From NCBI RefSeq assembly GCF_020149935.1, contig NZ_CP083757.1, forward strand, positions 1,798,001 to 1,862,000: a stretch of 64,000 nt of DNA, given 5' to 3'. A program made the position numbers and the translations under genes. Of this stretch, positions 4,192 through 10,664 are shown piece after piece. The notes beneath the pieces are model-generated. The model did not search any database. It saw only the letters and a list, made by a program, of their open reading frames with translations, and was not told the origin of the DNA. This stretch comes from Marinilongibacter aquaticus. GTDB lineage: Bacteria; Bacteroidota; Bacteroidia; Cytophagales; Spirosomataceae. How positions within the stretch are numbered: position 1 is the stretch's first letter; the number at the start of each line of letters is the position of its first letter.

Positions 4192-5586
4192 TTAAGGAAT
4201 GGTTTTAGTCTGTATCTTTCTGCTGAACAAGATATACAAGAAACCGCACAAAAGCCAAGCAGGCAGGGTAAGAAATGACAAAAATGTATCTGTAGCTGCG
4301 GCATAAGAATAGCCCAAAAGCACGGCAATCATCCAAGCCAAAAGCACCGCCCAATTCATTCTAAGATTCTGTTTTTCAGCATATTCCGGAATAAAACCAA
4401 ACCTTTTAGACCAATAGAAATCGACCACAATAATGGCTCCTACAGGGGCTAAAATAAATCCGTAAACCGCCACAAAATCAAGAAGTTTCATTGCAAAGGC
4501 AGGAAAAATCCCCGCCAAAGTGGCCACGGCTCCAGCCAGTACAGTAGCCGTACTCGTTTTCAGTTTTGGAAACAAGGTCTGAAAAGCCAATCCCGATCGG
4601 TAAATAGTCGGATTGGCAGTAGTCCATCCAGCCAAAATAACCACCAAAATCCCAAAAACACCCAAAGCATTGTAAGCCAGTGGCCCCGGAGCTACTGGAG
4701 GAGCCTCGCCTTGGGCTAAAAATTGTTGAGCTTCGGCAGATTGTAGATACACAGAGTACAATAAAGCGGCGGCTATCCAAGCCAAGAAATGGCCTACATA
4801 CATACCCGCGGCGGTGGTCCATCCCGAAGAAGCTTTCTTGGCATAGCGAAAGACGGAAAGGTCTGACATGCCCACATGCATGGCGGCATTGGCAAACCAA
4901 CTCCAAATGGCCACATGCCAGAATGTATATTTAATTTGCCCGGGAAAAGGCTCACGGCCTTCGCCCCAAATATTCCAAAAATCCATTATGCTGTGCACAC
5001 CCAATTGTTTCAAGGCCACAATAGCTCCACCCAAAAAACCAAGAATAATTATGGGCGACATCCAATTGGCAGCTTTCGAAACCATATGATACCCTTTGGC
5101 AGCAATAAAAGTGGTAATGGCCCCGAGTACCAATACAATGATTATCCAAGTGGGTCCATTGGGCAATGTATCTGTCAGTTTCGGCATATCCATATCGAAG
5201 GGAATCCCGATGGCCGTGGCCGATACCGTAAACATCGAGCCGGCCAGAAAACAGAACAGAATACCGTTGGCCACATTGTAGAACTTCACCAAGCCAGGGC
5301 CGCAGATTTTTTCAAGCTGATAATAAAGCGTAAGCCTTTTGTGTACCGCAATTTCGGCCGTGAGGAAACGCCAACTCAATACCGCCAGAAAATTTCCCAG
5401 CAACAGGCCGACGATGAGATCAAAAGCACTGACACCCACGGTGAGAAAAAGGGGGCCAATCATAAATTCTGTACCCGCTGCGTGCTCTCCTGCATACATT
5501 CCCAAAAAACTTCGCCAATCTTTCCAGGCACTTTTTGGTACGGGTTGCCGCTCGTATTCGGTTACGAGCTCGTTTTCTTCAGACAT
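4192..5586 (-). CDS. NCS1 family purine/pyrimidine-type permease
   Basis: A 464-aa polytopic inner-membrane protein with about 12 hydrophobic segments. The N-terminal region (WRSFLGMYAGEHAAGTEF), the FMIGPLFLTVGVSAFDL helix and the central GWTTANPTIYRSGLAF stretch resemble the cytosine/purine/hydroxymethylpyrimidine branch of NCS1 symporters. Such carriers move nucleobases or related heterocycles with protons or sodium. No nucleobase-catabolic genes are adjacent; the next gene on the same strand is the thiolase, so the substrate is open. The gene diverges from the lipoprotein gene, with about 117 bp of shared upstream DNA. Confidence 0.85.
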   Translation of the reverse strand: MSEENELVTEYERQPVPKSAWKDWRSFLGMYAGEHAAGTEFMIGPLFLTVGVSAFDLIVGLLLGNFLAVLSWRFLTAEIAVHKRLTLYYQLEKICGPGLVKFYNVANGILFCFLAGSMFTVSATAIGIPFDMDMPKLTDTLPNGPTWIIIVLVLGAITTFIAAKGYHMVSKAANWMSPIIILGFLGGAIVALKQLGVHSIMDFWNIWGEGREPFPGQIKYTFWHVAIWSWFANAAMHVGMSDLSVFRYAKKASSGWTTAAGMYVGHFLAWIAAALLYSVYLQSAEAQQFLAQGEAPPVAPGPLAYNALGVFGILVVILAGWTTANPTIYRSGLAFQTLFPKLKTSTATVLAGAVATLAGIFPAFAMKLLDFVAVYGFILAPVGAIIVVDFYWSKRFGFIPEYAEKQNLRMNWAVLLAWMIAVLLGYSYAAATDTFLSFLTLPAWLLCGFLYILFSRKIQTKTIP

Positions 5587-6838: not shown

Positions 6839-6868
6839 AAAGGAAGAGGCTTTCGGCCTACTTCCTTT
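6839..6868. terminator. Bidirectional terminator hairpin between dinB-like and Trm112-like genes
   Basis: AAAGGAAG (6839-6846) pairs with CTTCCTTT (6861-6868), and the inner AGGC/GCCT pairs around a TTTCG loop. A-rich and T-rich flanks make it usable from both strands. It overlaps the last codons of the Trm112-like gene, which ends at 6858. Confidence 0.75.
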
Positions 6869-7130
6869 CTTCCAACCTGAAATTCTCCAAGCTTCTTTCG
6901 CCCAATTGCTTACTCCATTTTTTGTATAAAGGCAGTTCCAATTGCTCTTCACGGTATTCATCGGGGTTCATAATCGGAATACCTTTCACAATGGGGTAAA
7001 TTCGTCGGCAGGCCGTGCATTCAAAAAAGCCTTCGATTACGCTTCCTTCATCGTTTTTCAACACTACGGTAAGCTTAAGGTCTTCTTTGTCGAATGGACA
7101 ACACAGTTTTTCAATCGTTTCCTGTTTCAT
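6858..7130 (-). CDS. Trm112-like zinc-ribbon protein
   Basis: A 90-aa protein of the Trm112/UPF0434 type. Trm112 proteins are small zinc-ribbon partners that bind and stabilise SAM-dependent methyltransferases. The knuckles are C11-PF-D14 and C38-TA-C41: the usual first CxxC is CxxD here. The IYPIVKGIPIM segment after the second knuckle is a family hallmark. It is the last gene of the TPP-riboswitch operon, overlapping the ThiE-like gene by 20 bp; the methyltransferase encoded first in that operon is an obvious candidate partner. That pairing is inference. Confidence 0.85.
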   Translation of the reverse strand: MKQETIEKLCCPFDKEDLKLTVVLKNDEGSVIEGFFECTACRRIYPIVKGIPIMNPDEYREEQLELPLYKKWSKQLGERSLENFRLEERK

Positions 7131-7743
7131 TCTTGTTTTCGTTTTTATAGGCTAATGTGGCCTTATAGGTGTCTTCTTTATCCATAATTCCAGAAATCAC
7201 GGCCAAACCATTGGCGTTCAGCATGCTCAATTCTTCTTTGTTTTTCGGATTAATTCCGCCCGCAAGAAAAATGCGTATTCCGCAAAGTTTTTGGGCTTCC
7301 AGAACCACTTCGGGCCGAACCAATTCACAACTGTTGCTGGTTTTCGAAGGGAACATGGAACAAAAGGAAATGTAGCTAAACCCTTCATTTTCGGCCCACA
7401 TTATCTTTTCCATTTCATTGTTGCAGGTCAAACCCAGCATCTTGCATTCACTTTCGACGGTCTCTTTTATCTGCTCCCAATCCTCTGGGATTTCGTCGAA
7501 ATGCACGCCATCCAAACCGAAGGCCGCAACCCATTCCCAGCGATTGTTGATCAGCAGCGGCGTATCAAAATCTTGGCAAAGACGTTTGACCGCTTTCAGT
7601 TTGATTTCTGCCACCCGCTCGTCCTGCCAATTTTCCCAGACTTGCACCGCCGCCAAACCGGCCCGCAAGGCCCCTTCAAGCTTGACAAGCAACTCATCCA
7701 AAGGCATGGACGGGTCTACAATCAAATACACTCCATTTTTCAT
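7111..7743 (-). CDS. Thiamine phosphate synthase (ThiE/TenI)-like protein
   Basis: A 210-aa TIM-barrel protein starting at MKNGVYLIVDPS (7743), whose ATG overlaps the upstream stop as ATGA. ThiE joins hydroxymethylpyrimidine-PP to thiazole phosphate to make thiamine phosphate. Visible family landmarks are LLINNRWEWVAAFGLDGVH (63-81), the YISFCSMFPSKTS stretch (124-136), FLAGGINPKN (159-168) and GLAVISGIM (179-187). The normal QLREK pyrophosphate-binding motif is replaced by QVWEN at 34-38, so the key Arg and Lys are missing; it may be a TenI-like enzyme or use a different substrate. It sits third in a TPP-controlled operon. Confidence 0.85.
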   Translation of the reverse strand: MKNGVYLIVDPSMPLDELLVKLEGALRAGLAAVQVWENWQDERVAEIKLKAVKRLCQDFDTPLLINNRWEWVAAFGLDGVHFDEIPEDWEQIKETVESECKMLGLTCNNEMEKIMWAENEGFSYISFCSMFPSKTSNSCELVRPEVVLEAQKLCGIRIFLAGGINPKNKEELSMLNANGLAVISGIMDKEDTYKATLAYKNENKNETGND

Positions 7744-8783
7744 TTCCAGCCCCTTTTCAATGCTCCAAAATACGCCGCCCAATACGGATCTTTCTCGGTG
7801 TAGGGCAGATCGTACATTTGCTCTTCGCTTATCAATTTCAAACCCTTTCCTTTTTCTGTAATCTTGCCTACCGCCGTGCAGGGAATTTCATGTGCCTGCA
7901 AGGCATCGATCACCACCTGTTCTTTTCCCGCTTCTGTCGCAATGAGCATACAGCCCTCGCCAATTACAGCACGTGGATCCAGATCAAACAAACGGCACAC
8001 TTCTTTCTGAGCTTGGCCTATGGGCAGCTTTTCATTTTGTATTTCGATTCCCAAATTCGACGCAACAGCGAGTTCATAAAGTGCTCCTAAAATACCGCCC
8101 TCGGTGACATTGTGCATGGCCGAAACCACTCCCGTTTTACGAGCAATTTGGGCCTCGTCGAGTACGGAAAGTCTGGAAAATTCGGAAGCCGCTGAAACGT
8201 AAACCTCTTGTCCCAATTGCCTTTTTACTTCTTGCGGAAAACTCATGGCCAAAAGAGCCGTAGCCGACATAGCCGCTTTTTTGGTGACAAGGATTGTTTG
8301 CCCCGCTTTCGCATTTTTCGACAATTTAATTTCATCCAAAGGGGCCACAGCCGAGAAAGTTCCTCCTCCCGAAATGGTGGATTCCAAACCTGGGATAAAA
8401 CCAGTATGCCCTCCCGAAATACTCATCCCGATTTCGCGGCAAAAACGATCGATGTAATGCCAATATTCACTAAAATCACTTCGGCTCATGCTGGCCGGAA
8501 GATTCAAAACAAACTGTCCGAATTGAGGAGCAAAACCACTTGTAGCCACATCGTTGGCGATAAGGTGCACCGAAAGAAAAGCCGATTCTTCCAAACCCAA
8601 ACTTGGGATCAAAGAAAGAGGATCACTGGAGGAAATCAGGCCGCGTCCATCGCCCAAATCCACCACAGATACATCGACACCAAATGCCGGCCCGCAAAAC
8701 AGTTCGCTTCTTGCCGAGCCCGTTTTTCCGAAAATCAACGATTTGAAAGCTTCGTGATCTATTTTCCCCAGATTGCTTTCCAT
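7740..8783 (-). CDS. AIR synthase/HypE-related ATP-binding protein
   Basis: A 347-aa member of the PurM/HypE/ThiL/SelD superfamily, whose members phosphorylate or activate substrates with ATP. Visible are the N-terminal nucleotide-binding half (LISSSDPLSLIPSLG, HLIANDVATSGFAPQF, ISGGHTGF) and the C-terminal half (VSAMHNVTEGGILGALYELA, then VIGEGCMLIA). It lacks the GDDAA motif of classical ThiL, so I would not call it thiamine-phosphate kinase; the HNVTEGGI stretch is closer to HypE-like proteins. It lies 4 bp after the methyltransferase gene and overlaps the ThiE-like gene. A phosphorylation step in TPP metabolism is plausible but inferred. Confidence 0.83.
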   Translation of the reverse strand: MESNLGKIDHEAFKSLIFGKTGSARSELFCGPAFGVDVSVVDLGDGRGLISSSDPLSLIPSLGLEESAFLSVHLIANDVATSGFAPQFGQFVLNLPASMSRSDFSEYWHYIDRFCREIGMSISGGHTGFIPGLESTISGGGTFSAVAPLDEIKLSKNAKAGQTILVTKKAAMSATALLAMSFPQEVKRQLGQEVYVSAASEFSRLSVLDEAQIARKTGVVSAMHNVTEGGILGALYELAVASNLGIEIQNEKLPIGQAQKEVCRLFDLDPRAVIGEGCMLIATEAGKEQVVIDALQAHEIPCTAVGKITEKGKGLKLISEEQMYDLPYTEKDPYWAAYFGALKRGWK

Positions 8784-8787
8784 AAAA

Positions 8788-9507
8788 TCAATCTTTGAAT
8801 CGAATGATCAGACCGAAGAAATCGCCGTAGGGCACACTCCACTGCTGCACGGGAAACCATTTGGGAAGCCCCGTACAGGTCCATTCTACAGTATATTCTC
8901 TTCCCTGCAAGGCTTCGGCTATAATGGCCTTTAAATGGTTGGGCGTATAAAAGGTGGCCGTCACGTAGAAAGGATTTTTGCCGAACACTTGTTGCACACG
9001 CCGTCTCAATACTTTCGGCGAATTGCGGTTCATCATGCCCATTACAATACCATGGCGGGCCACCCGTGCGGCCTCTCGAATTACAGCCACAGGATCGCGG
9101 TAATATTCGAAAGTGGTGATGAATGCCAATGCATCGAAAGTGTTGTCGCGAAAAGGCATGTGATGCGAATCGGCCATAACCAAATCGCCTTTGAATAAAT
9201 GCACCGCTTGAGAGAGCATCAGGGGCGAAATGTCACCACCCGAAGCCTTGATACCGATTTCGTGCCACCAACGCGTAAAACGGCCCGTTCCGCATCCAAA
9301 TTCGAGCAATTCCTTTATTCGCGGTTCTTTCGACAAAAGCTGTTGCATAACTTTCTTTTGCCAAACTTCGGCCCTTTTGTAACGGCCTTCGTACCATAAT
9401 TCGTAGGTATCGGTGTGCTCACGATTGAAAAACCATTCGGGTCTCCCCTGCCAGTTTTGATCTCTAGAGGGGATCAAAACGCCATTTCCTTCTTTTGTGA
9501 TTTCCAT
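8788..9507 (-). CDS. Class I SAM-dependent methyltransferase
   Basis: A 239-aa Rossmann methyltransferase of the UbiE/Methyltransf_11 type. Motif I is LLEFGCGTGRF (67-77), followed by ASGGDISPLML and the post-I acidic MADSHHMPFRDNTFDAL stretch. It is the first gene after the TPP riboswitch and heads four tightly packed genes. Its substrate is unknown; regulation by thiamine pyrophosphate and linkage to ThiE-like and AIRS-like genes point to a thiamine-related molecule. The Trm112-like product from the end of the operon may be its activating partner. Confidence 0.87.
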   Translation of the reverse strand: MEITKEGNGVLIPSRDQNWQGRPEWFFNREHTDTYELWYEGRYKRAEVWQKKVMQQLLSKEPRIKELLEFGCGTGRFTRWWHEIGIKASGGDISPLMLSQAVHLFKGDLVMADSHHMPFRDNTFDALAFITTFEYYRDPVAVIREAARVARHGIVMGMMNRNSPKVLRRRVQQVFGKNPFYVTATFYTPNHLKAIIAEALQGREYTVEWTCTGLPKWFPVQQWSVPYGDFFGLIIRFKD

Positions 9508-9582
9508 TTGCTTTGTGTTTTTTCATTTTCAACCTGAAATGGCCATAGGCTAAAATGAGAAGCACAAATGGAATATATTCGT

Positions 9583-9656
9583 ACTGCATTCCTACGTTGG
9601 TACTAACCAAATCAGGTTCGCGGGTATAATCTCAGCCCAAAGGGCACCCCGTGCAC
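9583..9656 (-). promoter_or_regulatory. TPP riboswitch (THI element)
   Basis: Read on the minus strand, the sequence contains GGGGTGCCC, then GGGCTGAGA, ACCCG, GAACCTGAT, and TTGGTTAGTACCAACGTAGG in that order. These match the conserved core of the thiamine pyrophosphate aptamer (P2/P3 CUGAGA bulge, P4/P5 CCUGAU segment). P3 is short. The aptamer starts a few bases downstream of a TAGCTTTG promoter box and lies about 75 bp before the methyltransferase start, so high TPP should lower expression of the operon 9507-6858. No obvious terminator hairpin follows it, so control may act on translation. Confidence 0.95.
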
Positions 9657-9659
9657 TTG

Positions 9660-9667
9660 CAAAGCTA
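9660..9667 (-). promoter_or_regulatory. -7 promoter box of the TPP-riboswitch operon
   Basis: On the minus strand this is TAGCTTTG, matching TAnnTTTG. A TTG lies 22 bp upstream. The predicted RNA start falls at the 5' edge of the riboswitch aptamer, which fits a leader RNA that begins with the aptamer. Confidence 0.7.
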
Positions 9668-9764: not shown

Positions 9765-10664
9765 ATGAATACACCCACCCATTTAAGCCGAAGAGCATTC
9801 ATTGGCTCCGTTGCTCCACTTGCCGGACTCCCGCTATTAGGTTCTTGGCCGTATCCCAGCTTTGCTACAGAAAAGTTTACCGTGGGAGCCATTATCGAAA
9901 GCATAATGAAAGAAGTGGACGGAGCTCCTTTTCCACGCACTGTGGATCAATTGCGTACAGGTAAGCTAGACCAGGAAGTGACGGGCATTGTTACAACGAT
10001 GTTTCCGACAATGGACGTGATTCAAAAAACTGCTGATTTAGGGGCCAATTTTATCATCGCTCACGAAACGCCTTTTTACAACAACAATGACGAAACAGAT
10101 TGGCTTCAAAACGATACCGCCTATCTGCACAAAATGGAGCTGATCCAAAAGCACAAAATAGCCATTTGGCGTTTTCACGATTATTGGCATCGGCATAAAC
10201 CCGATGGCATTATTATGGGAAACTTGATCAAACTAGGCTGGGAGAAACACTACGACCCGAACACTCCTCGTCTACTTACTTTACCCAAAAGCATGCCCAT
10301 TCGAGCCATTGCCGATTTGGCCAAAAATAAACTCGGCATTTCGACCGTTCGCATTGTAGGCAACCTGAAACAAGAATGTACACGCATTTATCTCGCCTTC
10401 GGCTATATGGATAGTCGCATGCAAATTGCAGCGATTGACCAATACAAACCGGATCTGATTTTAAGCGGCGAAACCCGTGAATGGGAAACAATTGAAAGGG
10501 TACGTGATGGACAACAAATGGGGCTGAACACCTCGATTATGGTATTGAGCCATGCCGTGAGCGAAGAAGCAGGCATGGAATATGCGGCCCAATGGTTACA
10601 GCCGAAGGTTCCGGGCATGAAAATCACCCATATTCCTTCTACAAATCCTTTCACTTTCTATTGA
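9765..10664 (+). CDS. Tat-exported Nif3-like dinuclear metal protein
   Basis: A 299-aa protein with a twin-arginine signal (SRRAFIGSVAPLAG, R9-R10) that ends around residue 35. The mature part resembles the Nif3/GTP cyclohydrolase I type 2-like fold: NFIIAHETPFYNN (H100, E101) takes the place of the HHP metal motif, and MVLSHAVSEEAGMEYAAQW near the C-terminus supplies the distal His/Glu pair. Nif3 proteins are normally cytoplasmic hexamers, so export is unusual. It diverges from the riboswitch operon; a near-consensus TATATTCG box lies at 9734-9741. Function unknown. Confidence 0.82.
   Translation: MNTPTHLSRRAFIGSVAPLAGLPLLGSWPYPSFATEKFTVGAIIESIMKEVDGAPFPRTVDQLRTGKLDQEVTGIVTTMFPTMDVIQKTADLGANFIIAHETPFYNNNDETDWLQNDTAYLHKMELIQKHKIAIWRFHDYWHRHKPDGIIMGNLIKLGWEKHYDPNTPRLLTLPKSMPIRAIADLAKNKLGISTVRIVGNLKQECTRIYLAFGYMDSRMQIAAIDQYKPDLILSGETREWETIERVRDGQQMGLNTSIMVLSHAVSEEAGMEYAAQWLQPKVPGMKITHIPSTNPFTFY

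Follow-up and report, generated by a model that had tools for sequence, protein, structure and literature searches.

A conserved four-gene cassette behind a thiamine pyrophosphate riboswitch suggests an as yet undescribed means of vitamin B1 acquisition or repair in Bacteroidota

The cassette of Marinilongibacter aquaticus and its riboswitch

On the minus strand of a 64,000-nt stretch of the Marinilongibacter aquaticus genome (NZ_CP083757.1; hereafter the window, in whose coordinates positions are given), a thiamine pyrophosphate (TPP) riboswitch aptamer is followed by a cassette of about 2.8 kb, which encodes, with spacing near zero and in this order, a methyltransferase, an AIRS/HypE-like protein, a diverged ThiE-like protein and a Trm112-like zinc ribbon. 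The four families had been named in an earlier note on this DNA and are confirmed by profile matches, and the aptamer proposed there at 9583-9656 is the core of the Rfam match listed below.

9572-9661, minus strand: TPP riboswitch aptamer RF00059 (Rfam covariance model, 68.7 bits)
9502-9573, minus strand: predicted expression-platform hairpin with arms 9564-9573 and 9502-9511 (single-sequence folding)
8788-9507, minus strand: class I S-adenosylmethionine (SAM)-dependent methyltransferase, 239 aa (Methyltransf_11, 64.8 bits, cut-off 21.2)
7740-8783, minus strand: AIRS/HypE-like ATP-superfamily protein, 347 aa (AIRS_C 71.9 bits, AIRS 32.4 bits)
7111-7743, minus strand: ThiE-like TIM barrel, 210 aa (TMP-TENI, 107.6 bits)
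6858-7130, minus strand: Trm112-like zinc ribbon of 90 aa, closing the cassette (Trm112p, 29.4 bits, cut-off 22)

The match to RF00059 extends over model positions 1-105 of 105 (E 2.1e-11; gathering score 54.3 bits) and is the sole Rfam gathering match within the window. The aptamer is separated by 64 bases from the ATG of the methyltransferase gene at 9507, and in the predicted hairpin downstream of it the segment just after P1 pairs with this start codon, which lies in the 3' arm and has an unpaired probability of 0.03 upon single-sequence folding. Further downstream, the ATG of the ThiE-like gene overlaps the AIRS stop codon.

The cassette shares its riboswitch family and a TMP-TENI protein with the canonical thiamine operons and transporter genes that TPP riboswitches control in Bacteroidota (thi genes, omr1, pnuT), and the M. 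aquaticus genome, a single 4.64 Mb contig, also possesses TPP aptamers before a TonB receptor (61.8 bits) and before a PnuC-type transporter (52.7 bits, slightly below the gathering score). In contrast to those operons, however, the cassette contains neither thiC, thiG, thiD, tenA nor a transporter gene, begins with the methyltransferase and ends with the Trm112-like gene, which supports the earlier view that this gene set departs from the usual thiamine operon. Neither an earlier description of the cassette nor its treatment as an ordinary, widely annotated thiamine set, which the earlier note had named as a reason to abandon its interpretation, was found in the open-licence full-text literature; of this phylum, the available part of the table in a TPP-regulon survey lists only Bacteroidaceae (PMC3766115).

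The PnuC-type gene of M. aquaticus (locus L006, 6534-8127, minus strand, aptamer at approximately 8178-8285) overlaps the start of a flavin-monooxygenase-like gene, the product of which matches the HsaA family with 67.5 bits, far below cut-off, and might be a further TPP-controlled enzyme.

Conservation across Bacteroidota

The earlier note had proposed a search for the four-gene set behind TPP aptamers elsewhere in Bacteroidota, and there it is indeed found. A phylum scan with the methyltransferase alignment against one genome per species recovered 228 relatives, the best 80 of which were analysed further; all four genes are present in the same order and on the same strand in 78 of these 80 loci, with the remaining two, L096 and L099, cut by contig ends. 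The genera concerned represent, by our own placement, presumably five classes of the phylum. Spacing is tight throughout, as the gaps, computed with script-assigned start codons, range from -17 to +15 nt between the methyltransferase and AIRS genes (78 of 79 loci), from -10 to +12 nt between the AIRS and ThiE-like genes (64 of 78) and from -23 to +6 nt between the ThiE-like and Trm112-like genes (69 of 78). No widespread fifth gene accompanies the four, the commonest neighbour clusters being present in nine of the 80 loci.

An independent entry through the AIRS protein, compared with 241 genomes of the order, identified 14 carriers, which belong to 11 of the 104 genera. The methyltransferase gene precedes the AIRS gene in all 14, and the ThiE-like and Trm112-like genes follow in 13; in the remaining locus, L011, the contig ends at this point and the one TMP-TENI gene of that genome sits at the start of another contig. 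The four genes are thus a fixed, conserved cassette which differs from the ordinary thiamine operon.

The riboswitch is equally constant. An aptamer lies upstream of the methyltransferase gene in 80 of 80 loci, 69 of which were recognized by a strict pattern (ten of them scored by Rfam as well) and the other 11 by the Rfam gathering score, while away from the methyltransferase the strict pattern occurs not once in 1.9 million bases of those loci, both strands counted. Within the order set, found via the AIRS protein and including the window, 13 of 14 carriers have the aptamer. When 11 leaders were folded, the unpaired probability of the start codon was at most 0.03 in seven and 0.44-0.68 in the remaining four; among the 69 leaders located by the aptamer pattern, single-sequence prediction buries the start codon (unpaired probability below 0.1) in 34, compared with 20.6% of 1,380 base-shuffled controls. 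The leader hairpin suggests translational control, and with the aptamer in place the cassette is in all likelihood TPP-controlled, so that a response to thiamine may be expected.

Identity to the window copy is highest for the methyltransferase (62-82%), the most constrained member of the cassette, followed by the Trm112-like (41-61%), the AIRS (40-57%) and the ThiE-like protein (34-47%). In a tree of three concatenated proteins most genera stay together, but classes are mixed, with Runella beside Sunxiuqinia, Algoriphagus beside Salegentibacter and Chryseobacterium beside a Sphingobacterium, which we read as apparent horizontal spread of the cassette. Four Arenibacter genomes are carriers, two of them twice, namely Arenibacter sp. 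F26102 (L059 and L070, on one contig approximately 32 kb apart) and A. arenosicollis (L061 and L093); the leaf isolates Chryseobacterium Leaf394 and Pedobacter Leaf176 are carriers as well. A plasmid search with the methyltransferase retrieved no close copy but four records, the best with 34% identity over 71%, and the annotation beside two of these weak matches includes nothing thiamine-related; corresponding searches for the Trm112-like and the ThiE-like protein produced no useful match.

The genes flanking the cassette in the window are absent near other cassettes, except for a thiolase-family match in six Algoriphagus loci. Directly upstream of the riboswitch, a divergent gene at 9765-10664 (plus strand) encodes a NIF3/DUF34 family protein, a position not conserved in other loci. 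At 4192-5586 (minus strand) a 464-aa membrane protein without a Pfam family at E 0.001 is encoded, which is not found near other cassettes and which resembles, in our view, an NCS1-type permease.

Relationship of the four proteins to known enzymes

The ThiE-like protein belongs to the fold family of ThiE (TMP-TENI), but remains below the NCBIfam thiE equivalog cut-off (102.9 against 145.1 bits). Alignment of 79 cassette sequences with six canonical ThiE proteins of the order showed that the Gln, the histidine of the GVH motif, the GG of the phosphate site and a Ser of canonical ThiE are retained, while other residues, invariant across the six canonical proteins, are replaced: an Arg by Trp in 79 of 79 sequences, a Lys by Asn or His in 77, an Asp by Asn or Glu in 77 and the next Asp by Pro in 72, with a second Lys gapped in all 79. 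The replaced or gapped Arg, Lys and Asp residues are the pyrophosphate and magnesium ligands of ThiE. Conversely, W35, D82, C127 and C138 (numbering starts at the Lys that follows the initiator Met) are invariant in all 79 cassette sequences and absent from the six canonical proteins. The active site is thus altered with respect to ThiE, with Trp in place of Arg and with D82, C127 and C138 as new residues.

The AIRS protein has a confident structure model (pLDDT 92.4), for which Foldseek finds HypE as the best match (TM 0.78-0.79), followed by SelD (up to 0.71) and ThiL (0.66); such matches identify the superfamily only. When compared as profiles, the protein and true ThiL match with E 2e-12 over 304 columns, which indicates that the two are kin. 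By its motifs, however, the cassette protein is not ThiL, as GDD, GGDT and DISDG occur in none of 79 AIRS proteins, but in nine, ten and ten of ten true ThiL sequences, respectively. It equally scores below the NCBIfam cut-offs for thiL (65.3 against 184.15 bits) and hypE (68 against 251.6 bits). HypE has a C-terminal Cys, and a Cys within the last ten residues is present in one of the 79 proteins. While the fold is common to HypE, ThiL, SelD and the cassette protein, the latter possesses its own motifs GGHT, DVTEGG and DPYW, and it likely performs an ATP-dependent step.

On plasmids, the closest relatives of the AIRS protein come from haloarchaea, with 28% identity over 96%. On three Haloarcula plasmids (L164, L168 and L169), which as members of one genus are counted as one event, an AIR synthase family gene stands head to head with genes for an MTH1187-type or other thiamine-binding protein and for the substrate-binding protein of a thiamine ABC transporter.

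The methyltransferase is a class I enzyme by the Pfam Methyltransf_11 criterion with a normal SAM motif, EFGCGT, which together with D92 is invariant in 36 aligned sequences; its structure model was poor (pLDDT 54.7) and was left unused. The Trm112-like protein exceeds the Pfam Trm112p cut-off, remains below that of the NCBIfam equivalog Trm112_arch (62.5 against 77 bits) and has C10, C11, C38 and C41 invariant in 13 sequences. The partners of Trm112 known so far act on RNA or on proteins such as translation factors. The co-occurrence of the methyltransferase gene with a gene for a Trm112-like protein with four invariant Cys in 78 of 78 complete loci resembles the Trm112-methyltransferase holoenzymes and leads us to infer that the two proteins pair in a complex; different from those holoenzymes, the pair here sits under a TPP riboswitch together with thiamine-like enzymes.

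Host thiamine genes and a possible salvage or repair function

None of the 14 order carriers possesses ThiC, full-length ThiG, ThiD over cut-off or canonical ThiE, the sole TMP-TENI protein over cut-off being that of the cassette (approximately 92-111 bits), while a separate true ThiL is present in all 14. As full-length ThiG only the seven matches of 355-362 bits were counted, and partial ThiD matches of 48-55 bits in four of the carriers were left out of the ThiD count. Among 14 non-carriers of the same families, full-length ThiG is present in seven and canonical ThiE in nine, a difference to the carriers with Fisher values of 0.006 and 0.0006, respectively, in which kinship is ignored and the carriers span several families. 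ThiD was found at 137 bits or more in 11 of 15 control genomes, which demonstrates that the search works but does not provide an unbiased rate, since the controls were chosen mostly for having ThiC or ThiE, with four of them (G243, G245, G253 and G257) included without a cassette test. At the level of the phylum, ThiC is missing from 45 of 49 carriers searched, a subset of the best 80 methyltransferase loci.

Two candidate signs of thiamine phosphate (TMP) production by the cassette were rejected. Nine of the 14 carriers lack the thiamine pyrophosphokinase TPK, which all 14 non-carriers from the same family possess, but as only one of 14 non-carriers from other families has TPK, its absence proved to be phylogenetic and uninformative on the cassette. 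Retention of ThiL is equally uninformative, as it is seen in 17 of 18 non-carriers as well. Nine genomes of the order (G001, G003-G007, G009, G012 and G013) have neither ThiC, the cassette nor TPK, but possess ThiL.

We lean towards reading the cassette as an autonomous module for the salvage or repair of thiamine, mainly of Bacteroidota that are unable to make it by the known route. Expressed when TPP is low, it would have the methyltransferase, partnered by the Trm112-like protein, methylate a small molecule, the AIRS protein spend ATP in the same route and the ThiE-like barrel act on a phosphorylated thiazole- or thiamine-like ligand; the product would feed either TMP, to be converted to TPP by ThiL, or thiamine. 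The pyrophosphorylated hydroxymethylpyrimidine (HMP-PP) is unlikely to be a substrate of the barrel, because the carriers have no ThiD over cut-off. A link to thiamine supply is supported by the aptamer in all 80 loci, by the fixed and tight order of four genes with no widespread fifth, by the aptamer-bearing transporter genes of the M. aquaticus genome and by the Haloarcula plasmid contexts, and a role in salvage or repair by the carriers' lack of ThiC, ThiG, ThiD and canonical ThiE. The lost ligands and the new invariant residues of the ThiE-like barrel count in favour of the module as well. Of the route with methylation and phosphorylation proposed in the earlier note, salvage or repair thus fits the host genes, while methylation of a thiamine moiety and phosphorylation by the AIRS protein are conjectural, the latter protein lacking the ThiL motifs in carriers that all have a separate true ThiL.

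Several observations weigh against a thiamine salvage or repair module. ThiC is present in four of the 49 phylum carriers (Mangrovivirga, Ferruginibacter, a Gramella and Sphingobacterium wenxiniae). Taken by itself, ThiC is a poor discriminator within the order, being found in none of 14 carriers and in four of 19 tested non-carriers; as ThiC-less non-carriers exist, bacteria can do without both ThiC and the cassette. Neither TPK nor ThiL tracks the cassette. Partial ThiG matches of 20-27 bits, which reach 34 bits when summed, occur in ten of the 14 carriers, seven of them over the nominal 23-bit cut-off; we take them for other TIM barrels. One order carrier, L016, has no TPP aptamer even at E 0.1, and plasmid relatives of the AIRS protein in Acaryochloris, Haloferax and Halobacterium are not located beside thiamine genes. 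The methyltransferase, finally, could act on RNA or protein.

This last point leads to a function outside thiamine, by which the cells would cope with TPP shortage or the methyltransferase-Trm112 pair would modify RNA, protein or another metabolite, with the barrel serving a different phosphorylated ligand. The rebuilt active site of the ThiE-like protein and the proximity in fold of the AIRS protein to HypE are in line with such a function, as are the RNA- and protein-modifying Trm112 partners; two of the six weak PDB matches of the methyltransferase are the 18S rRNA N7-methyltransferase, which is such a partner. That a TMP-TENI barrel stands under a TPP riboswitch in every one of the 80 loci, in genomes almost always without the canonical route, makes this explanation unlikely, though it is the most probable of the rivals; RNA modification by the pair in particular, while possible, would leave the riboswitch and the ThiE-like gene unexplained and is ranked low.

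A complete alternative de novo route to TMP, which replaces ThiC, ThiG, ThiD and ThiE, would agree with a self-contained gene set and with order carriers that lack all four proteins yet keep ThiL. We consider it improbable, as no enzyme of the cassette resembles a sulfur-inserting or radical step, M. aquaticus itself has TPP-aptamer transporter genes and ThiL is nearly as common among non-carriers. Arenibacter E3M18 is reported to be a B1 auxotroph with a half-saturation of 0.17 nM (PMC12448291); de novo synthesis is less likely because this strain is auxotrophic and its genus carries the cassette in four genomes, with E3M18 itself a candidate carrier at most. In a study on leaf isolates, ThiC and ThiG were present in each of the 21 thiamine prototrophs compared (PMC9666465), which equally speaks against such a route.

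That the cassette is a thiE-thiL pair of the usual kind, joined by two passengers with no relation to it, as the Pfam families TMP-TENI and AIRS behind a TPP riboswitch might at first suggest, is very improbable: both proteins fall below the respective NCBIfam cut-offs, the pyrophosphate and magnesium ligands are lost, ThiD over cut-off is missing in all 14 order carriers, the ThiL motifs are absent with true ThiL located elsewhere in the genomes, and the supposed passengers are present in every complete locus. Synthesis of a thiamine antivitamin against competitors, comparable to the antivitamin bacimethrin, would account for a methyltransferase among thiamine-like enzymes in a seemingly horizontally spread cassette, but is hardly credible, as TPP control fits supply better and no export or immunity gene recurs beside the cassette.

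Returning to thiamine salvage or repair, a more specific version can be formulated with the invariant cysteines of the ThiE-like protein in mind, as thiaminases use a cysteine. A cysteine of this ThiE relative would transfer a pyrimidine-methylene group to thiazole phosphate from a donor other than a pyrophosphate, with the methyltransferase-Trm112 pair and the HypE-like enzyme preparing the donor and methylation making or trapping the leaving group. Such a second biochemical way to rebuild B1 is a speculative proposal to which we assign a rather low probability.

Cumulatively, the cassette suggests that vitamin B1 is acquired or repaired in a manner not described so far. Its compactness of about 2.8 kb makes transfer into a laboratory thiamine auxotroph practical, and direct tests would become feasible for a subfamily of ThiE with a remodelled active site, for an AIRS subfamily of its own and for a Trm112-paired methyltransferase. 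B1 auxotrophy is commonly assigned to bacteria because thiC and thiG are missing. If thiamine is formed without HMP-PP, a route to it would be distributed across Bacteroidota that count as B1 auxotrophs, and if the cassette allows many Bacteroidota to live on an unmeasured vitamer, the exchange of vitamins predicted for soils, for waters and on plants would change.

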